In this document: positions 1-44,500 of the stretch, one piece after another
Layout of the letters: each line of letters begins with the position of its first letter
Numbering within the stretch: position 1 is the stretch's first letter
Origin: a virus
Virus record (IMG/VR): IMGVR_UViG_3300048113_000558
Span: 1-44,500 of that record
Length of the DNA: 44,500 bases
Reading direction: 5' to 3' (one strand)
The notes under the pieces: model-generated
The model's database searches: none
Seen by the model: the letters and a program-made list of their open reading frames with translations, nothing else
What the model was told of the DNA's origin: nothing
Made by a program: the position numbers and the translations under genes

Positions 1-127
1 ACGCTGAACCAGGATGCAGTGACCCGTGACCAGGTGGAAGCCGAGCTGGCCGAGCAGGCTGGTGATGACCGCAGCCTGTTCGATGATGCCGAGTGGCAGT
101 CCTTCGTCGATGAGGAGCTGGCAAAGC
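1..127. repeat. 127-bp terminal direct repeat, left copy
   Basis: Bases 1-127 are identical to 44374-44500. The repeat lies in the middle of an open reading frame that continues in phase through it, so it reads as an overlap left by assembly of a circular or permuted molecule rather than as a physical phage end. Confidence 0.95.
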
Positions 128-3100: not shown

Positions 3101-4251
3101 AGATTCGCCCGTGGCTGCAGTCGATCGCCAACGAGGTGAACCAGCCTGAATCCTACTGGGAGAAGCTGATCGGCCAGGCGCGCGTGGGCGCGACCGTGGT
3201 CAACATGGGCCTGAAGGTCACGACGGCCATCGTCCAGCCGCTGGGCTACCTGAACAGCATCGACATGCTGGGCGCCAAGTACGCATGGGCTGGCCTGACC
3301 AACTTCTTTGGATCGCATGGCGGGGGTCGCTCATACGCAACGTGGTCGAATATGAAGCACGCGACTGCGTTTGTGCATGAGCGCAGCACCATGATGGCCA
3401 ACCGCCAGAAGACATTCGACCGCGACGTGCGGGACTCGCTTCAGCGACTGACCAAGGACTCCCGTCTGCAGGACTGGCAGCGCAGTTTCTTCTACTTCAC
3501 CGGGCTGATGGATATGGCCGTGTCCGTGCCGACATGGATTGGTGCGTACCAGAAGGCGATGGATGGCCAGGTGTCAGAGATCGAGCTGGGCGATGAGGCG
3601 CGCGCGGCAGACTATGCCGACAGCATCGTGCGCCAGACGCAATCGGCGGGCGGCGTGAAAGACCTTGCGCAGATTCAGCGCGGCGGGCAGGTGCGCCGAT
3701 CGTTCGTCATGTTCTACTCGTACTTCAGCGTCCTGTATAACCAGTTCTCGCGCCAGATCAGCAACTATAAGCAGGGCAATATCAGCTTGCCGCAGCTGGC
3801 GTCGTCCGCCTTCTTCCTGTGGTTCGCTCCGTCGATCTTGGGCGAGCTGATCGCCGGGCGCGGGCCTGACGATGAGGATGAGTGGGCAGAGTGGGCTGCG
3901 CGCCAGGGCATCCTTTACCCAATGGGGGCCGTGGTCGGCCTGCGCGATGTCGGCAGCGCCGTGCTGACGCCGTTCGGGTATGGGGCAAGTCCCGCATTCG
4001 ACGCCTTCGAGATGACCGCCAGGACGGCAGCAATCCCGCTGAAGGCGATCGACGAAGATCAGGAGCTGGGGCGCAGCGACGTGAAGGCCGCCGTGCTGAC
4101 TGCCGGATACTGGGGCAAGCTGCCGAGCCGCCAGGCGTGGATTACTGGCGAATACATGTACGACGTGATGACGGGCGAAGCCAAGCCTGACAACCCCGGT
4201 GAGTTCGTGCGCGATCTCTTCTTCGCTCGCCCGGCTGACGAGCGCAATTGA
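1..4251 (+). CDS. Giant internal virion (ejection) protein, C-terminal part
   Basis: This is the 3' part of a gene that starts at 41665; the frame is open from base 1 and in phase across the assembly junction, so the GTG at 19 is not a real start. The joined protein would be 2,319 aa. In this part, joined residues about 973-1059 look like a GNAT acetyltransferase fold (a stretch around GSGTQVMNAI-like residues, then FYKRSGFVENKG). A zinc-protease-type HESGH motif lies at joined residues 1103-1107 (bases 598-612). Long charged helical stretches follow, and hydrophobic segments occur near the C-terminus (about 3700-3960). This pattern fits the large polyvalent proteins encoded last in the ejection-protein cluster of podoviruses, functionally comparable to T7 gp16. 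Position after a transglycosylase gene and before the tail fibre supports a role in DNA ejection. Enzymatic activity of either motif is inference. Confidence 0.85.
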   Translation, partial: TLNQDAVTRDQVEAELAEQAGDDRSLFDDAEWQSFVDEELAKRQPQAPAQPGSIQQARELSASLEQQFPGLTLNLGGRDGKITIDRIELRGDLRESGTGTQVMNAITGWADESGVTLGLTPSDSFGGNVKRLKQFYKRSGFVENKGAAKDFEISETMIREPVESLEQGGRQPRGRISFPQSRKFFNIELLEQANLSTFIHESGHLYLEILGDLAGRENAPQQLVGDYQKVLDWFGVDSADAIGVEQHEQWARGFEAYVMEGKSPSSAMREAFARFKAWMVAIYRTVANLDVELTDEVRGVMDRLVATDQEISEAALESGYQPIFTDATAAGMSEAEYQAYQAAAQRAREGAEESLSRKVMTEYQRETKKWWKNAKAEMTAEVAAEVNQQPAYVAMAVMGRGKLPDGSPLPEGMEPFKLSKSSLVESYGEPFLKRLPRPYIYSREGGIHQDMAAELFGYSSGDEMIQDIVNARPRRKLIESEVDVRMREQYGDMLNDGSMADSALEAVHNDMRSNVMQAELRTLARRSGGRQSPVSIIKDAAQRIMGEKRVRDIKPGLYLRAEQKAGREAFAAAADGDYAKATEAKQRQLLNHHLYREATRARDDADSVQSYMTRFNKKPTRTRIAKAGQEYIDQIDALLTRYEFKRTSIRRIDRRRSLEAWIAEQQGEGFTIDVPDAVMDDSRVVNWREVSIDELRGMRDAVKQIEHLARTKNRLLAEKDKRDFEAQVDTVVSAIEANHTRTERSVPLHESMREKVGNWASNAHAWHTKPEFLFRWLDGDAEVGPVWQALFKPLADAEAVEQRMQEKSTKELQRILGAYTREERAKWYVEKHYVQQVGQSIDKARMMAIALNWGNEYNREVLMEGYGWNAGQVDAILSYLTERDWLVVQELWDFIDGFWPDIKQMEEDLNGIAPKKVEAAGLETPAGTLRGGYYPIKYDTRTSYKAFQREEKAGASLFENSFTRPATRTGHTKERQGSGGQKLRLDIDVLSEHVGQVIHDLSHRRAVIDVNRLASNDQVRSAIEETAGTEMYRQIRPWLQSIANEVNQPESYWEKLIGQARVGATVVNMGLKVTTAIVQPLGYLNSIDMLGAKYAWAGLTNFFGSHGGGRSYATWSNMKHATAFVHERSTMMANRQKTFDRDVRDSLQRLTKDSRLQDWQRSFFYFTGLMDMAVSVPTWIGAYQKAMDGQVSEIELGDEARAADYADSIVRQTQSAGGVKDLAQIQRGGQVRRSFVMFYSYFSVLYNQFSRQISNYKQGNISLPQLASSAFFLWFAPSILGELIAGRGPDDEDEWAEWAARQGILYPMGAVVGLRDVGSAVLTPFGYGASPAFDAFEMTARTAAIPLKAIDEDQELGRSDVKAAVLTAGYWGKLPSRQAWITGEYMYDVMTGEAKPDNPGEFVRDLFFARPADERN

Positions 4252-10386: not shown

Positions 10387-11111
10387 GACTGATCCTCCAC
10401 CTTGCCGCCTGCAACGACGCGGATTCGCTTCTTGGGCTTGAGCTCTGGCTTGCGCTCCGCCAGCCATTCACTGCTAAATTCCGGCAGGGCGTCAACGGAC
10501 ATACCCATGATGAGCACGGCGGCTTGAACTGCTGGATCACTGCACCGGGCAAGTATCTTGTTTTCGCCTGATCGAATGTCGACCGCAGTGTGAGTCCTGC
10601 TGCTGAGCCTGGAGAACGTCGACTTGAGCTGAGCAATATAGTCCTCGTTCACAATGATCGGCTTGTTCGTCTCAGCAAACCCGCCAATCACTCTGGCAGC
10701 ATCGGGGAACTTCCCGTCGATCAGCTTGAGAGTGCCGAGCGCGGTTGTCTCGGTGGGTGATTCCGACTGCCGGGATGCGACTTCACCCTGAGTTAGATCA
10801 GCGTCTGATGACTGGATGCTGTCGATCACCATGCCCGTCCCGTTGTCAGCCACCACGAACAGGCCGGCAGACTTCTTGCGCGCCGCGGATAGTAGCGCCT
10901 TGCAGGGGGCGATGATCATCTCTTCGCTGCACCATCCGTCCGGGTCGCGGCACACGAAGATTGCATGTCCATTGGTCGCGGCGATAATCACCCCGCCATC
11001 CACGGCGGGGCGCACGTTGACGCCATTCAGGTAGTAGCGAACGTCGGTGGTGCCGGCGAACGTGTGAGCTGATGCGAGCATTGCTGCGCTGAAGTGTGCG
11101 ATCGGCTTCAT
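10383..11111 (-). CDS. Short beta-sliding-clamp-like protein
   Basis: The 242-aa product contains stretches that match the middle domain of bacterial DNA polymerase III beta: TTDVRYYLNGV, IIAATNGHAIFV and LIDGKFPDAARVI, and it ends with a VLIMGM segment comparable to the VMPM strand of the last domain. Bacterial clamps have about 366 residues in three domains; here the segment equivalent to domain 1 is missing, leaving two. It could form a ring of different stoichiometry, or act as a decoy or adaptor for the host polymerase. It lies in a RecE/RecT operon with four-base overlaps on both sides. The family call is fairly secure, the mode of action is inference. Confidence 0.75.
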   Translation of the reverse strand: MKPIAHFSAAMLASAHTFAGTTDVRYYLNGVNVRPAVDGGVIIAATNGHAIFVCRDPDGWCSEEMIIAPCKALLSAARKKSAGLFVVADNGTGMVIDSIQSSDADLTQGEVASRQSESPTETTALGTLKLIDGKFPDAARVIGGFAETNKPIIVNEDYIAQLKSTFSRLSSRTHTAVDIRSGENKILARCSDPAVQAAVLIMGMSVDALPEFSSEWLAERKPELKPKKRIRVVAGGKVEDQS

Positions 11112-11944
11112 GCCTCACCCTCCTGTGCCGCCTGGTACTGGTTGATCGGCGTGCCATCGCTGAACGGCACGTCGTCCTGCTTCGGGCCTGACAGCACATC
11201 GCTGAGCGCCTGCGGCCCTTGGCGTGGCGTGATGTCGCGCGCGTTGCGGTAGTCGTACAACTCTTCGTCGCGATTGACCACTGTGACCAGCTCGCTGCTG
11301 AGCGGCAGGCGCTTCGCCAGGCGGTGCAGCACCGACTTCTTGGCCATCTGCTCATACCAGTCTACCCAAGGGCCGCGGTCTTTCGACTTGCTGGCGTTGC
11401 GAACCTTGGCGATGTCCTCTGGCGTCATGATCTCGACGTACAGGGAGCCGTCCTTGGTCTTGGCCATCGCGTACACCAGCGTCATGTTGCCGCGCTGCCC
11501 GCCGAATGCCGGGCGGTGCATGATGTGCTCGCCGTCATCGTCGACGTAATAGTCGAACTGGTCGGCTTCATGCACGACGTTGGCGTTGATCGTGGCCAGC
11601 TCGCCAGACTGGCGAATCTTCTTGAGGACGCCGCCGATCATGGGCATCCACTGCACCTTCTTCACCCACTGCTGCGTGGCGCGATCCTTCGTGCTGAAGA
11701 TGATCAGCGCGCCTTCGCGACCGTCCGGCAGCAGGCCGTCCTGGGCTGCCTTCATGACACTGCTGAACAGTGACTGCCGGTCTGCCATCAGCAGGTCAGG
11801 GCTGGTCTGAATGGCCGTCATGGCGACGCGCTGGAACTGCTCGGGGGTGATGTGCTCCGGCAGTACCGACTTGAGCTCCGGCGCCATCTTGGTCATCTGG
11901 CTGCGCAGCTGCGTGATGGGGGTGACTTGCTGCTGTTGTGTCAT
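11108..11944 (-). CDS. recT: RecT-family single-strand annealing recombinase
   Basis: ATG 11944 follows AAGGAT. The 278-aa product has the RecT layout: an N-terminal VLPEHITPEQFQRVAMTAI segment, SLFSSVMKAAQDGLLPDGRE, a QWMPMIGGVLKK strand, and DRGPWVDWYEQMAKKSVLHR near residue 210, with a low-complexity acidic tail. RecT anneals complementary single strands and invades duplexes. It lies 29 bp downstream of the RecE-like exonuclease, the usual operon partner. Length and motifs look complete. Confidence 0.92.
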   Translation of the reverse strand: MTQQQQVTPITQLRSQMTKMAPELKSVLPEHITPEQFQRVAMTAIQTSPDLLMADRQSLFSSVMKAAQDGLLPDGREGALIIFSTKDRATQQWVKKVQWMPMIGGVLKKIRQSGELATINANVVHEADQFDYYVDDDGEHIMHRPAFGGQRGNMTLVYAMAKTKDGSLYVEIMTPEDIAKVRNASKSKDRGPWVDWYEQMAKKSVLHRLAKRLPLSSELVTVVNRDEELYDYRNARDITPRQGPQALSDVLSGPKQDDVPFSDGTPINQYQAAQEGEA

Positions 11945-11973
11945 GGTCTGATCCTTGTTGTGAGGGGGGGTGG

Positions 11974-12783
11974 TTACTTGGTGGCCCATGCTGGAAGGCT
12001 GAGCTCTTCGACGCCGGGCCAGACGCCTGACTCCATGCACTCGGCGTAGGTGCGCAGGTTGGCCTGGTAGGCATAACGACCGATCGTCTTGGCCTCCTGA
12101 TCCAGCTGGAAGATGCGCACCGGGTAGCGGCCGCACTCGATGGCGGTGCTGATGAACAGAAACAGGAAGCCGTTGGTGGCCTCGCCTGATGCGTTGGCAT
12201 AGCCATCAGAATAGAACGCATCCTGCACATGGTACCGGTAGTCAAAGACTGAGCGCGCCACCTTGCTCATGTCGCCGGTCGTCTTCACGTCGACGATAAA
12301 TCCAGCCTTGGTGATCAGCTTGTCGGGTCGGCACCGGCACTTCACGCCTGTCTCTGGGTCGATCCAGTACGCGCTGGCCTCGGCCTCGCCTTCTGCTTCC
12401 ATCAGCTGTCGCGCCTCGGGGTGCGCCATGACTGACTCGCGCATCAGGTTCAGCTTGCGCGCTTCCTCGCCGGTGATGACCATCTTTCCCGACGCCTTGC
12501 ACGCCGCTTCAAACTCTTCTGCCTGCTGCTTGCCGGCGTTGGTGCGGCGGTTGATCGCCGGCTCAATGACGAACTGGTCGGTGAACTTCTCCGGCTCCAG
12601 CAGCATGGTGTGCATGGCGGTGCCGACATTCAGCGCCGTCTTCTTACTGCTGTCTTCCGGCGCGCTACGCGACCACTGGAGAAGCGCCGGTGCCTTGTTG
12701 AGCATATCCAGGTTGGACTTGCTGACGCCTTCGCCGGCGTGGTACGCCGCATTGCTGATGTCGCTATAGATACCTGGCTTCAT
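11974..12783 (-). CDS. RecE/exonuclease VIII-like PD-(D/E)XK nuclease
   Basis: The 269-aa product starts at ATG 12783 with KPGIYSDISNAAYHAGEG, followed by GTAMHTMLLEPEKF, KCRCRPDKL, the catalytic-type FIVDVKTTGD (Asp-x-Lys) and YHVQDAFYSDGY (Gln). This corresponds to the C-terminal nuclease half of RecE. It degrades the 5' strand at duplex ends and hands 3' overhangs to RecT. An extension to 12900 is in frame, but it would cover the promoter region and lacks a ribosome site. It is the first gene of the leftward operon. Confidence 0.88.
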   Translation of the reverse strand: MKPGIYSDISNAAYHAGEGVSKSNLDMLNKAPALLQWSRSAPEDSSKKTALNVGTAMHTMLLEPEKFTDQFVIEPAINRRTNAGKQQAEEFEAACKASGKMVITGEEARKLNLMRESVMAHPEARQLMEAEGEAEASAYWIDPETGVKCRCRPDKLITKAGFIVDVKTTGDMSKVARSVFDYRYHVQDAFYSDGYANASGEATNGFLFLFISTAIECGRYPVRIFQLDQEAKTIGRYAYQANLRTYAECMESGVWPGVEELSLPAWATK

Positions 12784-13827: not shown

Positions 13828-14738
13828 CAGACAGCAAGCTCGACACGCTCGCAAGAGGGATGGATAAGTGGCCGGACGACCTGCCGCGTCTGCCCGACAA
13901 GATGGAAGGCCATTACTGGGCCGCCTATGGGGATGGTGGCGAGGTTGTTATGCGCCGACCACTCGGCCCGTCATACACTCGCAAGGACTGGGAGCGTCGC
14001 CGCAACGAACTGGGCCTAAACTCGCCGCTGGTTATGGCGCCATTTTTCGTTGGGGCCGAGCCGGTGAGCACGAAACGCCATGCTCTCGATTGCGTGATCA
14101 AGCAGCTGGATGGCTGTCGGTGGCCGCCGGATGGCTTCGACATCACCGTGCTGGATATTCCTGGCGCGTATGGGTGGCGGTGGCGGAACTTCGCCCAGTT
14201 TGGCACTAGAAGCGCATGGGATGTCTATTGCATCGAGCGTGGTGAAAATGAAGACCACATCACAATGAATGACTGGAACAGCGAGATGAAGAATCGAGGC
14301 GTCAAGTGCCCAGTCGATGGAGGCAACCCCGTCCACCTGGTCGGCAAACCTGGCGCCGCGCCAGCCACTACCGTCTATAAGGTCACCGACCTGGACATGA
14401 TCGACTGGCAAGGTGGCGAGGTGCTGAAGGACTTCATCAGCGCCGCCAAGAAGCCCGAGCACCACTATCACGTTCTGGCTAGCGTGCTGCTGCGCGCCTA
14501 TGAGCGGGCGGTATTCGGCAAGGGGAAGGGGTGCCACGCTCAAGACTTGCCGTTCGGTGAGCAACCCATGCAGCAGATCAGTCGCCTTGCCGGCAGCCAT
14601 GACGGGCTGGTGTATCAGGCCATCAAGAAGATTCAAGAGTCGCAGCGCCTGGATCACGACGCCGCAATCCGTGAGCTGCTGGGCGCGATCGTCTACACCG
14701 CTGGCAATATCGTATACCAAGAAGGAGAAGTGTCATGA
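13824..14738 (+). CDS. Hypothetical protein, 304 aa, upstream of RdgC
   Basis: The protein is unrecognised as a whole. Residues 1-185 are rich in Trp, Arg and Gly (YWAAYGDGGEVVMRRPLGPS, AYGWRWRNFAQFGTRSAWDV). Residues about 210-304 form a helical domain with KGCHAQDLPFGEQPMQQISR and AIRELLGAIVYTAGNIVY, a pattern I have only a vague impression of seeing in phage nucleotide-metabolism proteins, so no function is given. It starts four bases inside the previous gene and ends four bases inside RdgC. Confidence 0.65.
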   Translation: MTDSKLDTLARGMDKWPDDLPRLPDKMEGHYWAAYGDGGEVVMRRPLGPSYTRKDWERRRNELGLNSPLVMAPFFVGAEPVSTKRHALDCVIKQLDGCRWPPDGFDITVLDIPGAYGWRWRNFAQFGTRSAWDVYCIERGENEDHITMNDWNSEMKNRGVKCPVDGGNPVHLVGKPGAAPATTVYKVTDLDMIDWQGGEVLKDFISAAKKPEHHYHVLASVLLRAYERAVFGKGKGCHAQDLPFGEQPMQQISRLAGSHDGLVYQAIKKIQESQRLDHDAAIRELLGAIVYTAGNIVYQEGEVS

Positions 14739-15670
14739 TGTTCAAGAACCTGCACCTGTATCGCTTGCACGACATGTCAGTCATTGAAGGGCTGTCTATG
14801 CCTGCGCAGCACGACGATGCTATGGCGCGCGACCTGACCGGCATCCAGTCCAGGCATATCGGCTGGATCAACCCCTTCGGCACCGATGACTGCCGTCGCG
14901 TACTGGTCATGGGCCATCATCGCCTGCTGAGCGCGCTGCACCAGGAAAAGATTCTCCCGTCGTGCGTCGTCAATGATGATGTCAACGAGCGCGTCGATAC
15001 CATCGAGGCTGCCGAGGGGCGCACGCTGCGCCGCCGTGAGCGCCTGACAATCAAGGAGCAGGTGTTCGAGGAACTGCTGCCGCGCGCCTTCATTCGTCGC
15101 AAGCGCGTCGACATCTGGATCGACATCGAGCACGGCATCATCGCCGTCAACTGCACCACGCCGACAATGGCCGAGCGCGTTCTTGATCTGCTGCGCCATA
15201 CGCTGGGCTCGCTCAAGGTCACGCCGCTGTCCGTGGCGGTGCCGCCGACTCAGGTGATGACCACCTGGCTCAAGTCCGGAGAGATTCCCGAGGGCGTCGC
15301 GCTTGGCGAATCCGCCACACTGTCGGCGCCGGGCGGTGAAGACGGCACGATGAGCGTGAAGGACTTCGACCTGCAGGGCGAGGAAGTCTCGACGGCGCTG
15401 GATCATGGCCGTCTGGTGACGGTGCTGGAGATGGGCATCGAGGGCGTGGCCAGCTTCAAGCTGCACGACGACATGTCCATCAAGCGCCTGTCGTTCGCTG
15501 ACGCGATAATCGACGAAGCTGAGTCGGCAGACGACGAAGAAGACGCGAAGCTGCGCCTCGAGTCAGACTTTGCCATCATGGCGCAGGCGATGGCGCCGGC
15601 AATCCAGCAACTGATCAGCTACATGGGCGGCGAAGCGCAGCCGGCCACCACTACTACCGAGGGGAAATAA
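14735..15670 (+). CDS. rdgC: RdgC-like recombination-associated protein
   Basis: The 311-aa product starts [11 protein letters not shown], the signature N-terminus of RdgC (the MxFKNL pattern supports ATG 14735 over 14738), and keeps the family length of about 300. It contains [18 protein letters not shown] in the first third and an acidic C-terminal region. RdgC forms a ring dimer around duplex DNA and inhibits RecA-mediated exchange in bacteria. Phage copies may modulate recombination during replication. It follows immediately upon its neighbour with four-base overlap and precedes SSB by two bases, so the genes are co-expressed. Confidence 0.88.
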
Positions 15671-24253: not shown

Positions 24254-24323
24254 AGAAGCCTGCCTGTGGCTACGTGAGCTGCGCAGCTGGATGTTAACAA
24301 CCTATGGCAAGGGAGGTGAGTGA
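24069..24323 (+). CDS. Small membrane protein
   Basis: ATG 24069 has GAGG upstream. The 84-aa product has a basic amphipathic N-terminus and one long hydrophobic segment (about 37-62, WVGAVVMVAITLLLMPIAMV). It ends on the base that begins TerS. Could be a late-operon lead protein or antiholin; nothing decides this. Confidence 0.55.
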   Translation: MVKEIVGCLRRRVMRAMSKAWAQVWLATQSMPRWVGAVVMVAITLLLMPIAMVAAMIEAGLKEACLWLRELRSWMLTTYGKGGE

Positions 24324-24880
24324 TGGGGACGCCTCTTGATGACCGGCAGGAATCGTTCTGTCGAAACTATCTAATTGATTTTAATGCAACAAAAGCGGCT
24401 ATTGCCGCAGGGTATGCAAAGCGGTCTGCTGGACAACAGGCATGCCGGTTGCTGAAAAACGATAAAATCAAGACGAGATTGATCGAATTGAAGGAAGAGC
24501 GAAACAAGCGCTTGGAGGTGAATGCCGACTGGGTGCTTGAGATGGCCATGCTGATGGCGTCATTCGACATCACTACCATCTTGGATGAGCAGGGCAACGT
24601 CATGCCGGTGAGCGAGTGGCCGCGGGGCGCAGGCCTGGCCATTGCCGGCATGGATGTGTCCGAACTCGACATGGAGGGCGCGCCGCCATCCATCTTCAAG
24701 AAGATCAAGCGGGTTGATCCTCTGCGCGCGCTGGAGATGGTCGGGCGTCACGTCCAGATTCAGGCGTTCAAGGATAAGGTCGAGCATGAGATCACCGACA
24801 ACGCCGCCAGTCGCCTGCTGTCCGGGCGCGAGCGGGCACGACAGCAGATCAAGGAGGCTGATGATGACAGTGAATCCTAA
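24323..24880 (+). CDS. terS: Terminase small subunit (Terminase_2 type)
   Basis: ATG 24323 follows GGGAGG. The 185-aa product starts with LDDRQESFCRNYLIDFNATKAA, then AGYAKRSAGQQACRLLKNDKI, the typical DNA-binding N-terminus of Terminase_2 proteins (helix-turn-helix), and continues with the oligomerisation region. It recognises the packaging start site, usually in or near its own gene, and delivers DNA to TerL. The N-terminal coding part is noticeably AT-richer. Length is normal. Confidence 0.88.
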   Translation: MGTPLDDRQESFCRNYLIDFNATKAAIAAGYAKRSAGQQACRLLKNDKIKTRLIELKEERNKRLEVNADWVLEMAMLMASFDITTILDEQGNVMPVSEWPRGAGLAIAGMDVSELDMEGAPPSIFKKIKRVDPLRALEMVGRHVQIQAFKDKVEHEITDNAASRLLSGRERARQQIKEADDDSES

Positions 24881-25175
24881 GCGACCGAGCGCCGCTAGCG
24901 TTGCGTGGCGTAGTCTGGTTCGCCTGATGGATTGGGTGGTGCCGCGCTTCACGACTGAAGACGTGGCCGGAATCGTGGATGTCGAACACGGGGATATTGT
25001 CCCCGTCCTTCCGATGAGTGAGTGGATTCCCGCCATCGATGGAGAGCCGGATTATGTCGTGTCGATGCGCGGATTCAGCTTCTTCGGCAAGTCGTACTGC
25101 AATCGACCGGTCGGCGATACGCTGACGTATCAAGAATGGAAGTCCCGAAAGGAGGCTGACGATGACGCCAGCTGA
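24864..25175 (+). CDS. Hypothetical protein between terminase genes
   Basis: ATG 24864 is six bases after AAGGAGG. The 103-aa product is unrecognised. It has an amphipathic start (SVAWRSLVRLMDWVVPRFTT) and a strand-rich acidic middle (GIVDVEHGDIVPVLPMSEWI). It overlaps TerS by 17 and TerL by 14 bases, so it is translationally tied to packaging. Confidence 0.65.
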   Translation: MTVNPKRPSAASVAWRSLVRLMDWVVPRFTTEDVAGIVDVEHGDIVPVLPMSEWIPAIDGEPDYVVSMRGFSFFGKSYCNRPVGDTLTYQEWKSRKEADDDAS

Positions 25176-27675
25176 GTTCGAGGAGGCGCTGGCAGATGAT
25201 GTCGGCGGCTTCTTCTATGATCCGCTGGGCTTCGTGCTGTATGCCTTCCACTGGGGGGAAGATGACCTCAAGGGCCACGACGGGCCGGATGAATGGCAGC
25301 GCGAGTTCCTGACCGACTGGGGTAAGGCCATCCGTGCGAATGACTTCAATGGCGTTGATCCTGTTGATGCGTACCGTGATGCCACATCATCAGGCCACGG
25401 CATAGGAAAAGGCAGCCCCTGCAATATGTTTGTTTACTGTCCTGTGCCCGTGATAGATTCTTCTTCTCACAAGAAGGAGTTTTCTATGCAGCAGAAGAAA
25501 TGGGGTGATCAGAAGGTAGGCGACTACGTGTTCGGCGCGGACGGCACGCCAACCCGCATCATTGGCACCAACCGTTACCGCCGCGAGCACTTCCGCGTGA
25601 CGTTCGATGACGGCAGCAGCACTATCGTGTCGGGTGAGCACGAGTGGAATGTGCGTGGCCGCCAGGAGCGGCGCAAGAAGTCTGATGCCTGGCGAACCAT
25701 CGAAACCCAGGAGATCATTGCGCTGGGCGTGAAGCGGGCGAACGGGAAGGCGCAGGCTCGCCAGTGGGAGATACCCGTGCAGGGCGCGGCCCAATTCTCC
25801 ACGTCGCATGGCTTGCCGCTTGATCCTTATGTGATGGGTGTCTGGCTTAGCGACGGGAGCGGGCCAAAGGTGTCCAAGTCGAGCCAGGCCGTCCGCATGA
25901 AGATTCAGGATCGCCACCATTCGAGCATCAGGATTCTTGATCAAAAGCATATCTACCTGCACAAACTGGATCGGTCGCTAGACCCGGTGTTCGCATGCAG
26001 GAGCTGGGAGAAGTACATTCCTGAGCGGTACAAGTTCGCCAGCGTAGAGCAGCGCCAGTCACTATTCGAAGGGCTCATGGATGGTGATGGCGAGGTGAAC
26101 AAGTCTGGGTCGTGCGGGTATAGCAGCTCCAGCGAGAAGCTGGTCGATGATGTGATATGGCTTGCCCGAAGCCTTGGCTACAAGGCGATGAAGCAGCCGA
26201 CAGTCAAGAAACCCACGTACACATACAAGGGCGAGAAGCTGGACGGCAGGCATTCGTATCGCGCAACCATCAACACGCCGACCAACCCGTTTACGCACGA
26301 GTCTCGGCGCGCAGCATGGAAGCCATCGGAGCCCCGCTACCTGTCGCGCTGGATCGAGAGCATCGAGTCTGTCGGTATGATGGATGGCATGTGCATCACT
26401 GTTGAGGCTGAAGATCATCTGTACCAAGCGAATGACTTCATCGTCACTCACAACAGCGCACTGTCCTCCTGGGTGATCATCTTCATCATGGCGACGCGGC
26501 CGCACAGCAAGGGCGTGGTCACGGCCAACACGAGTGAGCAGCTGAAGACGAAGACCTGGGGTGAGCTGGGCAAGTGGCTGAAGCGGTGCATCTGCGGGCA
26601 CTGGTTCACTTACAATAACGGCAAGGGCAACATGAACCTGTATCACCCCGAGTTCCCCGAGAGCTGGCGGGTGGATGGGCAGACGTGCCGCGAGGAGAAC
26701 AGCGAATCCTTCGCCGGCCTGCACGCTGCCAACTCTTCGCCGTGGTACCTGTTCGATGAGGCCTCCGCGGTGCCCGACAAGATATGGGAGGTGGCCGAAG
26801 GCGGCCTTACCGATGGCGAGCCCTTCTGGTTCGTGTTCGGCAACCCGACCCGTAACACCGGGCGCTTCCGCGAGTGCTTCCGCAAGTACAAGCACCGCTG
26901 GAACACGCGCCAGGTCGACAGCCGCCAGGCGCGGATGACCAACAAGAAGCTGATCAAGCAATGGGAAGACGACTACGGCGCCAACTCTGACTTCTTCAAG
27001 GTGCGCGTGCGTGGCCTGTTCCCGTCGGCGTCCGAGCTCCAGTTCGTGCCGCAGCACCTGGTCGATGATGCAATGGGTCGCACCATCCTTGAGGGCCAGA
27101 TCAAGCACGCTCCTGTCATCCTGGGTGTCGATCCTGCATGGTCGGGCACCGATGAGATGGCCATCTACATGAGGCAAGGCCTGTTCTCCAAGCTGATCGG
27201 CACGTATGAGAAGACAGACGACGACGTGCGCATGGCCAGCGTCGTGGCCAACCTGCAAGACGAGTGGGACGCTGACGCCGTATTTATTGACTTCGGGTAT
27301 GGCACCGGCATGAAGAGTGTCGGCGACAGCTGGGGCCGGCGCTGGCAGCTGGTCAGCTTCGGCGGGAAGAGTGTCGACCCGCAGATGCTCAACAAGCGCG
27401 GCGAGATGTGGAACAGCTTGAAGAAGTGGCTGGGCGAGGGTGGCGCGATCGACGACCAGCCGACAGCAGACGAGATCACTGCGCCCGAGTACCGGGTGAA
27501 GCTGGACGGCAAGATCGTGCTCGAGAGCAAGGACGACATGAAGCGCCGCGGCGTGCCATCGCCTAACCGGGCTGATGCGTTGGCCCTGACGTTCGCGCAT
27601 CCTGTGGCGCCAAGGGCTACAATGAGAGGGCAGCAGCAACCCAAAGCACAAACCGAGTTCAACCCCTGGGAGTGA
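25162..27675 (+). CDS. terL: Terminase large subunit interrupted by an intein
   Basis: The 837-aa precursor holds an N-terminal ATPase and a C-terminal RNase H-like nuclease. Walker A is SGHGIGK (77-83) followed, after removal of residues 84-431, by SALSSW (432-437), restoring GHGIGKS. Walker B is WYLFDEAS (D532, E533). Nuclease acids are D657 in LGVDPAWSG, D710 in VFIDFG and D805 in NRADAL. The spliced product is 489 aa, normal for this TerL family. Without splicing the P-loop is split and packaging should fail. AAAGGAGG precedes ATG 25162. Confidence 0.93.
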   Translation: MTPAEFEEALADDVGGFFYDPLGFVLYAFHWGEDDLKGHDGPDEWQREFLTDWGKAIRANDFNGVDPVDAYRDATSSGHGIGKGSPCNMFVYCPVPVIDSSSHKKEFSMQQKKWGDQKVGDYVFGADGTPTRIIGTNRYRREHFRVTFDDGSSTIVSGEHEWNVRGRQERRKKSDAWRTIETQEIIALGVKRANGKAQARQWEIPVQGAAQFSTSHGLPLDPYVMGVWLSDGSGPKVSKSSQAVRMKIQDRHHSSIRILDQKHIYLHKLDRSLDPVFACRSWEKYIPERYKFASVEQRQSLFEGLMDGDGEVNKSGSCGYSSSSEKLVDDVIWLARSLGYKAMKQPTVKKPTYTYKGEKLDGRHSYRATINTPTNPFTHESRRAAWKPSEPRYLSRWIESIESVGMMDGMCITVEAEDHLYQANDFIVTHNSALSSWVIIFIMATRPHSKGVVTANTSEQLKTKTWGELGKWLKRCICGHWFTYNNGKGNMNLYHPEFPESWRVDGQTCREENSESFAGLHAANSSPWYLFDEASAVPDKIWEVAEGGLTDGEPFWFVFGNPTRNTGRFRECFRKYKHRWNTRQVDSRQARMTNKKLIKQWEDDYGANSDFFKVRVRGLFPSASELQFVPQHLVDDAMGRTILEGQIKHAPVILGVDPAWSGTDEMAIYMRQGLFSKLIGTYEKTDDDVRMASVVANLQDEWDADAVFIDFGYGTGMKSVGDSWGRRWQLVSFGGKSVDPQMLNKRGEMWNSLKKWLGEGGAIDDQPTADEITAPEYRVKLDGKIVLESKDDMKRRGVPSPNRADALALTFAHPVAPRATMRGQQQPKAQTEFNPWE
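25411..26454 (+). mobile_element. Class 3-like intein with LAGLIDADG endonuclease in TerL Walker A
   Basis: Residues 84-431 (348 aa) form the intein. Block B is GSSTIVSGEH (G151-H160) with Trp162 at B:12. Block F has Cys411 (F:4) in MCITVEAEDH. Block G is FIVTHN with Thr429 (G:5), His430, Asn431, followed by Ser432 as +1. Trp/Cys/Thr at these positions is the class 3 signature; such inteins need no N-terminal nucleophile, and here the first residue is Gly. The endonuclease motifs are YVMGVWLSDG (D231) and LFEGLMDGDG (D309), both with their catalytic Asp, so homing activity may be intact. The insertion falls between Walker A Lys and Ser. The segment about 88-110 looks longer than usual before the KVGDYVFG strand. 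Confidence 0.88.
25460..25488 (+). promoter_or_regulatory. Internal ribosome site and hairpin inside the intein
   Basis: AAGGAG (25474-25479) lies six bases ahead of an in-frame ATG (25486, residue 109). Arms CTTCTT (25460-25465) and AAGAAG (25471-25476) can pair and partly hide the site. Initiation here would give an intein fragment lacking the N-terminal splice region, with the endonuclease and C-extein. Confidence 0.4.
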
Positions 27676-28377: not shown

Positions 28378-28584
28378 ATGTGCGGATCATCTCCGAGCGT
28401 CCCTGAAGCGACACCGGCGCCGCCTGCGCCCGTCGCGCCGGAACAGAACGAAGAGGCCCAGGCCGCAGGGGATGACGCACGCCGTCGTCGTGCTGCAGCA
28501 GGCGGTCGATCGTCCACCATTCTCACCGGCAGCCAGGGTGCCAGTGAAAGCCAGGCGCAAGGCAAAACGCTTTTAGGTCAGTAA
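28378..28584 (+). CDS. Small conserved virion-cluster protein
   Basis: ATG 28378 has GAGGAA upstream. The 68-aa product is Pro/Ala-rich at first and ends with RRAAAGGRSSTILTGSQG, then GKTLLGQ. A GRxSTILT...KTLLG ending is common in small proteins encoded before the portal gene of podoviruses. Role unknown. Its stop overlaps the HNH gene's ATG (TAATG). Confidence 0.65.
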   Translation: MCGSSPSVPEATPAPPAPVAPEQNEEAQAAGDDARRRRAAAGGRSSTILTGSQGASESQAQGKTLLGQ

Positions 28585-29087
28585 TGATCACTCAATCGAG
28601 GCTCAAGCAACTGCTGGCGTATGATCCGGAGACTGGGGTCTTTCGTCGCGTCTGCGATCAAGGGCGCTGGAAGAAAGGCTCCATTGCTGGATCAACTGAT
28701 GATGCAAGTGGTTCATCTGGCGGCTACGTCAAGATATACGTGGATGGCCGGCGTTATCGGGCGCACCGTCTAGCCTGGATGTACATGACAGGGGCTTTTC
28801 CGTCGTCAGTTGATCACATTAACCACGACAGGTCGGACAACAGATGGCTGAACTTGCGGATGGCGTCCCAGCCCGATAACGCAAAGAACAGGAAGATGAA
28901 CTCGAATAACTCTAGTGGTTTTCGTGGGGTGTCGTGGTACAAGCCTTCAGGAAAGTGGATGGCTTACATAAACACCGCGCCGGGGAAGAGAAAGAACCTC
29001 GGCTACTTCGATACCATTCTTGATGCTGTTGCGGAGAGAGTGCGAGCGGAGAGGCACTACGAATACCATGAGAATCACGGAGCGTGA
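28584..29087 (+). CDS. HNH homing endonuclease with AP2-like DNA-binding domain
   Basis: The 167-aa product has an N-terminal NUMOD-like strand region, the HNH core YRAHRLAWMYMTG...DHINHDRSDNRWLNLR (H61, D77-H78, N80, H81, N90), and an AP2-type domain (about 111-152, SGFRGVSWYKPSGKWMAYI). Catalytic residues look complete. It is visibly AT-richer than the flanking structural genes and splits the small pre-portal gene from the portal, so it is likely a mobile endonuclease gene inserted here. Confidence 0.9.
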   Translation: MITQSRLKQLLAYDPETGVFRRVCDQGRWKKGSIAGSTDDASGSSGGYVKIYVDGRRYRAHRLAWMYMTGAFPSSVDHINHDRSDNRWLNLRMASQPDNAKNRKMNSNNSSGFRGVSWYKPSGKWMAYINTAPGKRKNLGYFDTILDAVAERVRAERHYEYHENHGA

Positions 29088-29089
29088 CC

Positions 29090-30754
29090 ATGAGCGAGAC
29101 AAAGCGGCAGCGGTACGAGAAGCGATTGAAGGCGCTGAAGACTGAGCGCTCCGGCTGGGAAGCGGAGTGGCGCAGCATCAGCTCATACGTGCAGCCGTGG
29201 CGCTCGCGGTTCTGCGTCAGTGATACCAACAAGGGCACCCGGCATAACGACTCAATGGTCGACGAGACTCCGCACCTTGCGAGTCGCACGCTGGCGTCGG
29301 GCATGATGGCCGGTATCACGTCGCCTGCACGCAAGTGGTTCAAGCTCGAGGTGCCCGACCCTGATCTAATGGAGTCCGGCGCTGTCAAGTGGTGGCTGTA
29401 TGAGGTCGAGCGCCGGATGACGGCAGCCATCGGCAAGGCCAACGCCTACAACTCTTTCCACCAGCTGTATACCGAGCTGGGCACCTTCGGCACCGGTGCC
29501 GCGTTCATCGTCGAGGATGAGGAGACCATCTTCCGCGTCATACCGATGACGGTCGGCAGCTACTATCTGGCCTGCTCGCATCGCCAGGTGGTCGACACGC
29601 TATATCGAGAGCTGCGCATGACCGTCCGCCAGCTGGTCGATCAGTTCGGTCGCAACAAGGTCAGCGAGTCGGTGAAAAACCAGTACGACAATGGCAACCT
29701 GGATCAGTGGGTTGACGTGGTTCATCTGGTCGAGCCCAACGATGAGCGCGACCCTGAGAAGCTGGACAGCAAGAACAAGCCGTTCCGCAGCTGCTATTAC
29801 GAGGTGGGCGCGAAGGGTAGCGACCTGCTGAGCGAATCAGGTTTCGATGAGTTCCCGGTGATTGCGCCGCGCTGGGATGTGCTGGGCGAGGATGTCTATG
29901 GCTACGGGCCGGGCAGCGTGGCTGTCGGTGCAAGTCGCGCACTACAGGTGATGCAGAAGCGCAAGGCGCAGGCCGTCGAGAAGATGATCAATCCGCCGAT
30001 GAACGTACCGTCTTCGTCGCGCAATGATCCTATCGACCTGCGACCTGGGGCCGTAAACTACTATGATGCGTCGACAGGAATGAATACTGCGGCGCACCCC
30101 AGCCAGAATATCAACCTGCCGATCAACTACATCCTCGAGGACATCACTGCTCACCAGGATCGCATCAATAGGGCATTCTTCGCCGACCTGTTCGCCATGA
30201 TGCAGAATGACACGCGCAGCAACATCACGGCGCGCGAGATACAGGAGCGTCACGAAGAGAAGCTGCTACAGCTGGGCCCGGTGATTGAGCGCTTGGGTAC
30301 CGAGATGCTCGATCCATTCATCGACCGCGTGTTTGGTATCATGATGCGCAGTGGCCAGCTGCCGGCGCCTCCCGAGGAGCTGCAAGGCCTTGATCTGGGC
30401 GTCGAGTACATCAGCGTCATGGCCCAGGCGCAGAAGCTGGTCGGCACCGGTGCCATCGAGCGCATCAGTTCGTTCGTCGGCAACCTCGCTGGCGCTGATC
30501 CGTCAGTGCTCGACAAGATCGACCTGGATCAGACCGTCGATCAGTACAGTCAGGCCGTCAGCGCGCCGCCTGACATCATCCGCAGTGACGACGATGTTGA
30601 GGCGATCCGCCAGCAGCGGGCCCAGGCCGAGCAGGCGCAGCAGCAGATGCAGATGGCGCAACAGGCTGCGCAAGGTGCTAAGCTACTGAGCGAAACGGAC
30701 ACGCAGACTGAAAACGGACTGACGCAGATGATGCGACAGATGGGGCTTGCATGA
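29090..30754 (+). CDS. Portal (head-tail connecting) protein
   Basis: ATG 29090 has GGAG upstream; a GTG at 29084 overlaps the HNH stop. The 554-aa product fits the podovirus head-tail connector family: RWEAEWRSISSYVQP-like start, HLASRTLASGMMAGITSPAR, FGTGAAFIVEDEETIFRVIP, and NITAREIQERHEEKLLQLGP near residue 385. It forms the dodecameric portal through which DNA enters and leaves. C-terminal Gln-rich helix. Confidence 0.92.
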   Translation: MSETKRQRYEKRLKALKTERSGWEAEWRSISSYVQPWRSRFCVSDTNKGTRHNDSMVDETPHLASRTLASGMMAGITSPARKWFKLEVPDPDLMESGAVKWWLYEVERRMTAAIGKANAYNSFHQLYTELGTFGTGAAFIVEDEETIFRVIPMTVGSYYLACSHRQVVDTLYRELRMTVRQLVDQFGRNKVSESVKNQYDNGNLDQWVDVVHLVEPNDERDPEKLDSKNKPFRSCYYEVGAKGSDLLSESGFDEFPVIAPRWDVLGEDVYGYGPGSVAVGASRALQVMQKRKAQAVEKMINPPMNVPSSSRNDPIDLRPGAVNYYDASTGMNTAAHPSQNINLPINYILEDITAHQDRINRAFFADLFAMMQNDTRSNITAREIQERHEEKLLQLGPVIERLGTEMLDPFIDRVFGIMMRSGQLPAPPEELQGLDLGVEYISVMAQAQKLVGTGAIERISSFVGNLAGADPSVLDKIDLDQTVDQYSQAVSAPPDIIRSDDDVEAIRQQRAQAEQAQQQMQMAQQAAQGAKLLSETDTQTENGLTQMMRQMGLA

Positions 30755-39526: not shown

Positions 39527-41665
39527 ATGGCGCGCATTCCTCGCCTGAACAACCAGTCGCGCGTGCAGGTACAGGCCGCGCCCGGCGTTACCAGCTCCGG
39601 CAACCTCCCGCAGTCTGCGTTCGGTGCTGACGTGTCTGGCGCTGCCGAGGGTATCGCCAACATTGCCATGCAGTACAAGAACCGCATGGACACGGCGCGC
39701 GTCATGGAGGCCGATAGCAGCCTGACCGAGTTCGAGAATACGGCACTGTACGACCCTGAGAACGGGGCGCTCAACCTGACTGGAAAGAACGCATTCGGTG
39801 CGCCCGACAAGGTTATGGCCGACTTCGATCGCACGGCGTCCGATATTCGCCATGGGCTCAACGGCTCCCAGCAGGTCGCGTTCGACAAGATGACCGCGCA
39901 GCGCCGGCAGCAGATTCAGAAGACGATGAATCGCCACGTCGCCAATCAGGCGCAGGCATACGAGCAGGAGCAGTTGACCAGCCTGATCGCCGGAAGCCAG
40001 ATCACCGCCAGCAACTACTACAACGACCCGGGGCGCATTCAGACCGAGCTGCAGCGACAGACAGCTGCGCTGATGGCTAGTGCTCAGGATAACGGCTGGT
40101 CGCCAGAGAAGACCCAGCTGGCAATCCGAGAGGCGCGAGCCAATACGCACGGCGCCGTTCTCAACCGGCTGGCCGCGACCGACACCAATCAGGCAATGAC
40201 CTACTACGCCAAGCACGCCAACGAGATGACGCCCGCGGTGCAGGCCAAGTATGACGCCGGCATCAAGGTGATGCGTGACCGCCAGACAGCTGAGAGCGTG
40301 GTGGCTGGTATCGTTGGTGGTCAGGGCGTCGGTGCTGATGGCGTGTGGTCGCGCATGATTCAGCAGGAGAGTGGCGGCAACCAGCTGAACAAGGACGGCA
40401 CGACCGTGACATCGCCGAAGGGCGCGCGCGGTATCGCCCAGGTGATGCCGGACACCGCCAAGGAAACGGCTGCCAAGATGGGGATTCCGTGGGACGAAGA
40501 GCGCTATATGAAAGACCCCGAGTACAACATGGCGCTCGGCAAGGCCTACTACGATGAGCAGATCAAGACGTTCGGCGACCCGATGCTGGCCGCTGCCGCC
40601 TACAATGCCGGCCCAGGGTCGGTGAGCAAGTGGATCGCTGAGTATGGCGACCCGCGTACTGGCGAGATCAGCCGCCAAGAGTTCGCATCCAAGATTCCTT
40701 TCAAGGAAACCCGGGACTACGTTGCCAAGGTGGCGCCGCCGAACACGGTTGAGCCCGGCCTTCAGCTCACACGGTCGCAGCAGATGGCCGCCGTCGAGGG
40801 GCTGCCCGCCAATATCCGTGATGACGCCAAGGATCGCCTAAAGGCGCTGCACGCCGTCGAGGATCAGCAGAAGGCTGAGCTGTTCAACCAGCTGCAGCTC
40901 GAGGTCGAGCGCGGCGGTAGCTTCGATGACCTGCCGGTCGAGGCCGTCAACCAGATGGACGCGAAGCAGATGAAGGCGCTGCGCTCCCGCAGCCAGGAGT
41001 TGGCCGGCGTCGAGATCGAGACTGACTGGCGCAAGTGGACGGAGGTTTCCACGATGAGCCGCACCGAGCTTGCCGCCATCAAAGACCCGTACACTGAGCT
41101 GCGCCCGCACCTGGATGACGCGCTGTACAAGAAGGCGTTGACGATGGTGAATGAGGCCAAGGGTATCGGCACCGAGGGCGATGCGCCGGAAACCAGCAGC
41201 ACGCTGACCTTCAATCAGATGATCAAGAACAGCGCCAACCTGGTCGGCATTACACCGGCAGACAAGACTCCAGCCAAGTGGGACGAAGACGAGACGCTTG
41301 CGTATGCCCGATTCCAGAATGAGGCAGCTGCGCGGGTCGAGGCATGGGAGCGCCAGAATGGACGCAAGGCGACAGGCCAAGAGCAGCAGTCCGTCATCGA
41401 CGAGTTGCTGACCGAGACGGTGATGGTTGATGGTGGCTGGCTGGGTGGCGACGAAGAGCGCTATTCCTTCACGCTGGACGAGGATGACCTGGGCGACGCA
41501 TACGTCCCGATCGCCGACATCCCAACAGAGGATGCCGAGTTCGTGCGCAACCTTCTCCGAAGCAATGGGTTCACTGCGGAAAATGCAGTCGTGCAGCGAG
41601 CCTATGCTCAATATAAACTGGGCAACACAGAGGCATTCCAGAAGATCATCTCCGAGGGCAAATAA
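39527..41665 (+). CDS. Internal virion protein with lytic transglycosylase domain
   Basis: The 712-aa product has an N-terminal helical region and an SLT domain at about 270-390: WSRMIQQESGGN (catalytic-type E281), KGARGIAQVMPDTAKETAAK, and LAAAAYNAGPGSVSKWI. The order Glu, GxxQxMP, AAYNAG is the classical SLT signature. It should open peptidoglycan locally during DNA ejection. The C-terminal half is helical. In T7 this domain sits on gp16; here it is on the protein before the giant one. Confidence 0.92.
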   Translation: MARIPRLNNQSRVQVQAAPGVTSSGNLPQSAFGADVSGAAEGIANIAMQYKNRMDTARVMEADSSLTEFENTALYDPENGALNLTGKNAFGAPDKVMADFDRTASDIRHGLNGSQQVAFDKMTAQRRQQIQKTMNRHVANQAQAYEQEQLTSLIAGSQITASNYYNDPGRIQTELQRQTAALMASAQDNGWSPEKTQLAIREARANTHGAVLNRLAATDTNQAMTYYAKHANEMTPAVQAKYDAGIKVMRDRQTAESVVAGIVGGQGVGADGVWSRMIQQESGGNQLNKDGTTVTSPKGARGIAQVMPDTAKETAAKMGIPWDEERYMKDPEYNMALGKAYYDEQIKTFGDPMLAAAAYNAGPGSVSKWIAEYGDPRTGEISRQEFASKIPFKETRDYVAKVAPPNTVEPGLQLTRSQQMAAVEGLPANIRDDAKDRLKALHAVEDQQKAELFNQLQLEVERGGSFDDLPVEAVNQMDAKQMKALRSRSQELAGVEIETDWRKWTEVSTMSRTELAAIKDPYTELRPHLDDALYKKALTMVNEAKGIGTEGDAPETSSTLTFNQMIKNSANLVGITPADKTPAKWDEDETLAYARFQNEAAARVEAWERQNGRKATGQEQQSVIDELLTETVMVDGGWLGGDEERYSFTLDEDDLGDAYVPIADIPTEDAEFVRNLLRSNGFTAENAVVQRAYAQYKLGNTEAFQKIISEGK

Positions 41666-44500
41666 TGGCCGGCATCCAGGACTGGTATCAGAAGACGAAC
41701 CCGCTGCAAGACGCGGCACTCGGTGCGTCGAGCGAGGACGCCGGGCACAACATGAATCCGATGCCCGCACCCAAGACCGACTTCCAGAAGTGGGCGACCG
41801 GCCTGCAGGGCGAACAGAAGTTGGCGGCATCCATGCGCCAGGCGCGCCAGCAGAATCCCGAGCTCAAGGCTGAGGTCTTCAAGCTGCAAGGTCAGACCGG
41901 CCTGCCCGCCGAGCTGATCCAGCGCAACATGGATATGGTGCGTCAGCGAGTCAGCCGGCAGGACTTCGATGCCGCCAAGTTCCGCCAGGACTTCCCGAAG
42001 CTGGCCAGCGCAATGGAAGACCCTGATACGGCCAGCGTTGCCCACGATGACCTGGATAGCCTGCAGATCATGGAACGAGTGCTTTCCAGTGGTAGTGCGC
42101 CTGGCGATGGCGCGTATGGAGTCATTGACCCTGCGGCGCTTCGCCGCCAGATGCTGAATGGCGAGATCACGCCGGAGGAGTACGTCGAGCTTCACCCGAA
42201 GTACCGCCAGCCGCTTCTTCGCCAGGCGACCGTGGCAGCCAACCTGGACGCGCAAGATGCAGCTGTACAGAACGCAGCATGGCAGGCGCTGGATCGCAGC
42301 AACGCACAGGAGCGATTCGAGCAGATGGGCACGCTCGAATGGTTCACCAAGGCGCCGGTCGCGGCATGGCGCCAGGGGCGACTGGCCGAGGATCGCAACG
42401 GGCTGGCATTCCAGCAGATGATGGCCGGGGGCGACCCGTCGCTTGAAGGGCGCCTGGTCGAGATGGAGGGGCAGCTGGGCCGCAAGTTCGGCGATGAGTC
42501 GCTGGCCGGCGGTATCCTGGTGTCGGCCGCCGAGTTCGCGCCAATGACGGTATCCAGCTTGGCGGCTGGCGCCGAGACTGGCCTTACCGCTGCGCTGGCT
42601 GCCGGTGGTGTTGCCGCTGTGGCTGGCCAGGCTGGCCCGCAGATCGCATTTCCCGAAGAGGTGGTGACGGTGCCGGGCGCCGCTGCGCTTGGATTCGCTG
42701 CCGGCTCACGCACTGGTGCTGCGCAGTATTCGTTCCAGCAAGAGACGGGCGGCGCTTACCGCGAGTTCAAGGCGTTACGTGACGAAGACGGCGTACCGAT
42801 GGATAACGCCACGGCCACGGTGGCGGCGGTGGTGTCCGGCAGCGTCAACGCAGGGCTGGAGCTGTTCGGGCTCGAGACGCTGGTGAAGTCATTCCCCGGT
42901 GGCGAGAAAGTCTTGTCTGGCATCAGTCGCAATTCCATCAAGGCTGCGCTGAAGACGCCGAGCGTCCGCAAGGCTTTCGCTGACCTTGGTAAGCGCTTCG
43001 CTGGCGTGTGGTCTGTCGAGACGATGACCGAGGTGGCGCAGGAGGGTGTCGTCATCTTGGGTGGCGAGCTGGCAAAAGCATTCAGCTCGAGCGACTTCGA
43101 GGGCGTGACAGCCGAGCAAGTGGAAGAGCGCCTGACTGAGACATTCAAGATGGCCGCGCAGGGCATGGTGCTGATGTCCGCGCCCGGCCCGATGACTACG
43201 TTCGCGATGGACTACGGCAAGGCCAAGGGTGCCCAGCAGACGCAAGACCGCATGGAGGCGCTTGGGGAAGGTGCCCGGGCATCCAAGCTGCGCGAGCGCA
43301 TGCCGCAGAAATATCGCCAGATCATCGACAAGCTGCGAGATGGTGGCCCGATCGACGCCGTGCAGGTGCCGGTCGAGCGCTGGAATGAGCTGTTCCAGAA
43401 TCGCGGCATCGACCCTGCTGAGATGGCCAACGAGGTGACTGGCAATTACGACTCGTACTCCGAGGCGATGGCGTCCGGTGGCGACTTCGTGATTCCGCTG
43501 GCCGACTACGTTGAGAAGCTGGCTGCGTCAGAGTTACACGACGACATGGCCGACAATGCCCGCTTCAATCCCGGCGACATGACGCCGCGGGAAGCGCGCG
43601 AGTGGATGGCCAACGCTCCCGAGGCGACGCAATCCTACATTGACGAGATGGCCAATGCTCCAGCTGACCCGAGCGAGGCGGTATATGACGACGTGATTGG
43701 CCAGCTCACAGCTGCCGGTCGCGATCGCAGTGCTGCCGAGAATGAAGCGCGACTGACCCAGGCCGTCTTCCGCACGCTGGGCGAGCGCACTGGGCAAGAC
43801 CCTGCTGAGCTGTTCCGCCAGTACGGCATCACCATATCCCGACCGATGCCCGAGGTGCTGCGCAACGCGACGCACGACATCGACACTGAGCTTGATCCGC
43901 TGATCGACCGGCTGCGCGCCGGCGACATCCCGAGCCAGCGTGATGCATTCGGCCAGTCGCTGGTCGAGTTCCTGCGGGAGCGCGGCATTCAGGATGAGGG
44001 TGGCGAGCTTGCCGCAAGGGACGCCGACGTTGGACGAAAGGCATTCCAGCGGGCGCTGGCACGTGGTGACGGCATGACGCTTGATGACGCGGCGCAGGCG
44101 GCGGCTGAGGCCGGGTATCTGACCGGCCAGGATCGCAGCACTGTCACGCAGCAAGACTTGCTGGATGCCATCGACCGCGAGCTGGGCGGCGAGCCAGTCT
44201 ATACGCCGAGCGGTGCGAACACGCAGCAGCAGAACGTGATCGACGTTCTGACCAGCCTGGGTGACTACATCGAGGAGATGGGTGGCGACATCGACGCGAT
44301 GGATAACGCCGCAATCAAGGCGCTGATGAAAGGTGAGCCGATCGCCCAGCCAGACCAGCAGGATGACTCGACCACGCTGAACCAGGATGCAGTGACCCGT
44401 GACCAGGTGGAAGCCGAGCTGGCCGAGCAGGCTGGTGATGACCGCAGCCTGTTCGATGATGCCGAGTGGCAGTCCTTCGTCGATGAGGAGCTGGCAAAGC
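41665..44500 (+). CDS. Giant internal virion (ejection) protein, N-terminal part
   Basis: ATG 41665 overlaps the previous TAA (TAATG). The frame is open to the window end and continues in phase at base 1, giving 2,319 aa in total. This part (joined residues 1-903 before the repeat) is helical and acidic at first, has a hydrophobic Ala/Gly-rich region at about 285-350 (GLTAALAAGGVAAVAGQAGP) and a second at about 360-420, and a conserved-looking stretch MPEVLRNATHDIDTELDPLI near residue 730. The hydrophobic parts may insert in the host inner membrane during ejection. Confidence 0.85.
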   Translation, partial: MAGIQDWYQKTNPLQDAALGASSEDAGHNMNPMPAPKTDFQKWATGLQGEQKLAASMRQARQQNPELKAEVFKLQGQTGLPAELIQRNMDMVRQRVSRQDFDAAKFRQDFPKLASAMEDPDTASVAHDDLDSLQIMERVLSSGSAPGDGAYGVIDPAALRRQMLNGEITPEEYVELHPKYRQPLLRQATVAANLDAQDAAVQNAAWQALDRSNAQERFEQMGTLEWFTKAPVAAWRQGRLAEDRNGLAFQQMMAGGDPSLEGRLVEMEGQLGRKFGDESLAGGILVSAAEFAPMTVSSLAAGAETGLTAALAAGGVAAVAGQAGPQIAFPEEVVTVPGAAALGFAAGSRTGAAQYSFQQETGGAYREFKALRDEDGVPMDNATATVAAVVSGSVNAGLELFGLETLVKSFPGGEKVLSGISRNSIKAALKTPSVRKAFADLGKRFAGVWSVETMTEVAQEGVVILGGELAKAFSSSDFEGVTAEQVEERLTETFKMAAQGMVLMSAPGPMTTFAMDYGKAKGAQQTQDRMEALGEGARASKLRERMPQKYRQIIDKLRDGGPIDAVQVPVERWNELFQNRGIDPAEMANEVTGNYDSYSEAMASGGDFVIPLADYVEKLAASELHDDMADNARFNPGDMTPREAREWMANAPEATQSYIDEMANAPADPSEAVYDDVIGQLTAAGRDRSAAENEARLTQAVFRTLGERTGQDPAELFRQYGITISRPMPEVLRNATHDIDTELDPLIDRLRAGDIPSQRDAFGQSLVEFLRERGIQDEGGELAARDADVGRKAFQRALARGDGMTLDDAAQAAAEAGYLTGQDRSTVTQQDLLDAIDRELGGEPVYTPSGANTQQQNVIDVLTSLGDYIEEMGGDIDAMDNAAIKALMKGEPIAQPDQQDDSTTLNQDAVTRDQVEAELAEQAGDDRSLFDDAEWQSFVDEELAK
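44374..44500. repeat. 127-bp terminal direct repeat, right copy
   Basis: Identical to 1-127 and in the same reading frame of the giant gene. See the left copy for interpretation. Confidence 0.95.

Follow-up and report, generated by a model that had tools for sequence, protein, structure and literature searches.

A probable mobile class 3 intein within the Walker A motif of a phage large terminase

Introduction

Class 3 inteins are defined by a Trp at position 12 of block B (B:12), a Cys at position 4 of block F (F:4) and a Thr at position 5 of block G (G:5), together known as the WCT triplet, and by the absence of an N-terminal nucleophile (PMC5050341; PMC5222942). Their +1 residue is Ser or Thr and rarely Cys (PMC5222942). 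In MchDnaB1, the block B His, the block F Cys and the Thr constitute a protease-like triad (PMC7664689). The occurrence of class 3 inteins in the large terminase (TerL) of phages, their insertion between Lys and Thr of the P-loop, and the need for splicing before TerL can be active are all already published; the authors regarded splicing as a crucial step by which the active site of TerL is formed (PMC5050341). The mycobacteriophage inteins TerL1-a and TerL1-b both lie in the TerL P-loop, as does the element described here. TerL1-a separates the invariant Lys from the nucleophilic Thr, and TerL1-b (from BAKA) carries the WCT residues, splices fast and cuts intein-free terL (PMC5050341).

Here we analyse a stretch of viral DNA of 44,500 nucleotides (hereafter the window; IMG/VR record IMGVR_UViG_3300048113_000558), whose terL gene is interrupted in the codons of the Walker A motif. 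Judged from its sequence, what interrupts the gene is a class 3 intein of full length that carries a LAGLIDADG homing endonuclease of its own, a reading to which we give a probability of about 0.9.

Results

The interrupted terminase gene and its surroundings

The TerL precursor is encoded by an open reading frame of 837 codons (25162..27675, + strand), whose 837-residue product comprises the exteins plus the intein. The N-extein (residues 1–83; 25162..25410, +), delimited by alignment with intein-free TerL, ends in the Walker A sequence SSGHGIGK, and the C-extein (residues 432–837; 26455..27675, +) contains the remaining part of the ATPase domain, with the Walker B motif YLFDEAS, and the nuclease domain. 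The exteins are 80–85% identical to the annotated terminase of Cobetia phage Carin1 (80% being the tblastn value over the exteins) and 54–75% identical to the terminases of epsilon15, HB2107-3I and BIS08P22; the Carin1 TerL itself matches phrog_2, the terminase large subunit. The 5′ neighbour of terL is a TerS gene (24320-24880; Pfam Terminase_2), and a portal gene (29084-30754; Pfam Head-tail_con) and a GP7 major capsid gene lie downstream. Homology and gene context thus assign the interrupted gene to the large terminase. In a DNA search, only Carin1 emerged as a near relative beyond the conserved TerL patch.

Several other features of the window were noted. An exact direct repeat of 127 bp occupies its two ends (1-127 and 44374-44500), and the record therefore probably represents a whole genome of ~44.4 kb, either closed into a circle or permuted; a giant ORF exits at the right end (41665-44499) and apparently resumes at 19-4251 (phrog_9880). 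A homologue of bacterial RdgC, a recombination-associated protein, is encoded at 14735-15670 (+) and scores above the curated NCBIfam cut-off. Between the genes that follow terL and the portal gene there is a free-standing ORF of 167 aa with HNH_3 and AP2 endonuclease domains (28584-29087, +). The interval at this place is ~70 bp in Carin1 versus ~555 bp in the window, and the ORF looks like a second homing-type insertion adjoining terL.

Limits of the insertion

The insertion is in-frame, 348 aa long (Gly84–Asn431; 25411..26454, +), and located exactly between Walker A Lys83 and Ser432. The uninterrupted TerL of Carin1 reads GHGIGK/SALSSW, where the slash marks the corresponding site, and has 489 residues, which is the length of the precursor (837) minus that of the insertion (348). 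When the TerL genes of the viral collection were ranked by how closely they resemble the uninterrupted TerL of Carin1 (a ranking that may slightly favour empty sites), all of the top 80 had GHGxGKS without an insertion. Comparison with intein-free TerLs therefore sets the start of the intein at Gly84. A nearly constant spacing within the inteins fixes the junction independently: from the Lys/Gly start to a conserved TP motif (CP in the window) there are 10 residues, as in nearly all relatives. The first residue of 38 other distinct inteins is Ala in 26, Gly in 7, Leu in 3 and Val in 2, and never Cys, Ser or Thr. The initial annotation had claimed an insertion of this size and extent in the Walker A motif, and it proved exact in its limits and in the positions of K83, G84, H160, W162, C411, T429, H430, N431 and S432; the site is also shared by homologues. 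The Cys near the junction that it had numbered 88 is in fact Cys87.

The class 3 signature

The window intein was aligned with 34 others from the viral collection, giving an alignment of 35 sequences. His160, Trp162, Cys411, Thr429, His430, Asn431 and Asp309 are invariant in all of them, so the signature cannot be attributed to chance. His160 (B:10) and Trp162 (B:12), encoded at 25639-25647, lie in the block B region (25621..25659, +); Cys411 (26392..26394, +) takes the F:4 position, as the predicted initiating nucleophile, and the 6rix residue aligned with it is likewise the block F Cys. Thr429 takes the G:5 position and is followed by His430 and Asn431 (THN in 35/35), after which comes Ser432 (26446..26457, + for the four residues), at once the +1 nucleophile and the Walker A Ser. 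The +1 residue is Ser in 33 of the 35 inteins and Thr in the other 2. Position 1 of the window intein is Gly84, with no Cys, Ser or Thr to act from there. At intein position 10 the block A Thr, present in 29/35, is replaced by Cys in the window, a departure from most relatives. As a separate observation, the TerL intein of Vibrio phage JSF3 (L016) has the block F Cys and THN and lacks the Trp at B:12 (HINIV); it is either an exception to the WCT pattern or a decayed copy.

The best sequence matches in the PDB, as found by phmmer, are the class 3 inteins MchDnaB1 (6rix, 6riy) and DnaBi1 of M. smegmatis (6bs8), and the same class 3 DnaB inteins rank first in a profile search of the PDB (E 1e-18). 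The profile also scores the gp41-1 intein with an engineered WCT triplet higher (61.1 bits) than wild-type gp41-1 (47.7 bits). For the window intein no Pfam splicing-domain match exceeded the cut-off, with Hom_end_hint falling below it. Since the class 3 inteins of the PDB are matched by phmmer, we attribute this to divergence. The class 3 assignment made in the initial annotation is thereby supported in all features that can be tested on sequence, and these are conserved in homologues with the same site and the same ends. It is thus very probable that the intein splices by the class 3 route.

Predicted fold, endonuclease and block A extension

Both LAGLIDADG motifs can be recognized, and both aspartates that had been said to be kept are present. 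The first motif (DPYVMGVWLSDGS; 25822..25860, +) carries the catalytic Asp231 within VMGVWLSDG, the position being Asp in 31/35 inteins and Asn or Glu in the others, and the second (LFEGLMDGDGEV; 26065..26100, +) carries the catalytic Asp309, Asp in 35/35, within LFEGLMDGDG. Pfam Hom_end is matched by the window intein at 4.8e-06, above the Pfam cut-off, and by all 35 aligned members. The AlphaFold model, built from the 35 sequences, has a mean pLDDT of 90.3 and a pTM of 0.90. Its best Foldseek match is the PI-SceI intein-endonuclease (E 9.5e-17), followed by archaeal VMA inteins, the WCT-engineered gp41-1 intein, I-DmoI and class 3 DnaB inteins. Sequence and a confidently predicted fold accordingly both show an intact LAGLIDADG domain.

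The block A region (25411..25521, +) bears an extension of 12-15 aa that is specific to a subclade. In the window intein 30 residues precede the WGD motif, and in the set comprising the window, L024, L026, L027, L028 and, more distantly, L038 there are 28-31, against 16 in the other inteins. In the 359-residue model the extension appears as a longer β-hairpin (strands E13-20 and E29-36), with lower confidence at its tip, and its plain reading is a surface hairpin. It is not obviously a product of decay, since it is common to the four or five nearest relatives. No relatives of the four-member subclade alignment were found in bacterial genomes, in a search with two short patterns only and thus weak as evidence of absence.

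Mobility and selection

The inteins are much more alike than the terminases that harbour them. Identities to the window for intein and extein, respectively, are 73 and 38% for L024, 67 and 53% for L026, 65 and 27% for L027, and 64 and 26% for L028, yet no intein is present in Carin1, whose extein identity is 85%. The window, L024, L026, L027 and L028 constitute a supported group in the intein tree. When the exteins of these five, whose grouping had been chosen on intein identities in advance of the extein tree, were forced into one clade, the log-likelihood changed by -425 units (AU test, p 2.7e-54). Because intein and extein histories conflict in this way, the window intein moves horizontally; it has passed among distantly related terL genes, with identical codons as its target, and homing is the simplest route. 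In all likelihood it is still mobile by homing, or was so until recently, although the discordance itself shows past mobility and not necessarily present mobility. The GC content (57.4% in the intein, 61.6% in the extein) suggests mild compositional foreignness, which was not counted as evidence. In close pairs the dN/dS of the inteins is ~0.05-0.28, pairs with saturated or undefined dS being left out, which shows that purifying selection keeps these inteins functional.

Endonuclease domains of inteins often decay, and the window intein could accordingly be one that still splices with its endonuclease inactive, inheritance now being vertical. We consider this unlikely, given that both catalytic aspartates are kept, that Hom_end is matched above the Pfam cut-off and that the discordance between intein and extein is strong.

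Proposed splicing and its possible regulation

Studied class 3 inteins (PMC5222942; PMC7664689) suggest the following course of events. The precursor TerL would be unable to form the Walker A loop and, with this loop split, is not expected to hydrolyse ATP normally. Cys411, aided by His160 and Thr429, would attack the Lys83-Gly84 bond to give a branched thioester at block F. The acyl group would then transfer to Ser432, Asn431 would cyclise with the help of His430, and an acyl shift would join Lys83 to Ser432, restoring GHGIGKS in a TerL of 489 aa. Once released, the intein may cleave the Walker A codons of intein-free terL, and recombination may then copy it into that gene. It would persist there selfishly, in a position where imprecise deletion is not tolerated. 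A RecT-like single-strand annealing protein (phrog_148), a function relevant to the recombination needed for homing, is encoded elsewhere in the window (11108-12136, -). The suggestion that packaging ATPase activity depends on splicing is a sound one and had already been made for TerL inteins (PMC5050341).

This dependence raises the question, already touched on in the initial annotation, whether the intein serves in addition as a post-translational switch, with splicing delayed to late infection or to a redox or metal cue so as to time packaging. With its Walker A loop split, the packaging ATPase must await splicing; moreover, H2O2 blocks the splicing of the class 3 intein DnaBi1 of M. smegmatis (PMC6195587), and zinc is reported to block mycobacterial DnaB splicing (PMC7360933). 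However, the inhibitory disulfide of DnaBi1 is formed between Cys48 and the catalytic Cys (PMC6195587), and Cys48 aligns to His143 in the window and to Cys in none of the 35 inteins. The intein is also missing from all of the 80 nearest TerLs and is therefore dispensable to the phage group, and the TerL inteins that were assayed spliced fast (PMC5050341). A regulatory role of this kind is thus distinctly improbable, and the more specific proposal that delayed splicing sets the onset of the packaging motor, the block A extension acting as a sensor or as a TerL/TerS contact, is very improbable. A selfish element fits better than a needed switch because the distribution is sporadic.

Could the intein instead be degenerate, the TerL dead and the contig that of a defective virus? 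Pseudogenes do exist among class 3-type inteins elsewhere (Arsp-FB24; PMC3196547), but here the frame is open, the catalytic residues are all present and the relatives are under purifying selection, while in the exteins the motifs of Walker B and of the nuclease are retained and identity to the Carin1 TerL is 85%, which makes such decay extremely improbable. Ser85, Cys87 and Cys93 all lie near the junction, but a class 1 intein beginning at one of them and leaving a few residues in the product is scarcely credible, for Cys87 is Cys in only 3/35 inteins and Cys93 in 1/35, the Lys/Gly start preserves the 10-residue spacing, a leftover GSP would spoil GHGIGKS, and the block F residue that is Asp in class 1 is Cys here. 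Starts at Ser85 or Cys87 were rejected as the residues are not conserved, and class 1 membership was rejected on the block F Cys and the missing N-terminal nucleophile. The start at Ser85 or a Cys, without Trp/Cys/Thr conservation, that the initial annotation had named as counter-evidence is not what the homologues display: they keep the WCT residues and never start with Cys, Ser or Thr.

Discussion: comparison with known systems

One of the closest known counterparts is an insertion in the TerL of Salmonella phage PAT1 (MT261384, L007), in a gene annotated simply as terminase large subunit. It occupies the same GHGIGK/SA site and displays WCT, THN and the class 3 pattern. Its intein is 35-36% identical to that of the window, starts with Ala and has a short block A. 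The class 3 inteins of the DarB/SNF2-type helicases of the jumbo phages PhiPA3 and FishSpeaker likewise have a P-loop Lys/Thr site, WCT and LAGLIDADG; their identity to the window intein is 34-35%, and they reside in a protein other than a GHGxGKS TerL. The mycobacterial DnaB inteins (MchDnaB1, 6rix/6riy; DnaBi1, 6bs8) share with the window intein the class 3 His/Cys/Thr triad plus Trp and the P-loop insertion, but they are mini-inteins in DnaB without an endonuclease, and the redox Cys48 of DnaBi1 is His in the window.

Compared with TerL1-a and TerL1-b, the window TerL belongs to another family (GHGxGKS, of epsilon15/Carin1-like podoviruses) and another host group, the block A hairpin is longer in the window subclade, and the BAKA intein, 31.5% identical to that of the window, has its site shifted by one residue. 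A little is new here, namely the subclade with a block A hairpin extended by 12-15 residues, which widens the sequence diversity of class 3 inteins. In environmental and enterobacterial phages whose TerLs share just 26-53% identity, one class 3 intein family invades the same codons of the Walker A motif, whereas the site remains empty in the nearest relatives. The window intein and Carin1-type phages offer a natural filled/empty pair for questions of homing and of the cost and timing of packaging.
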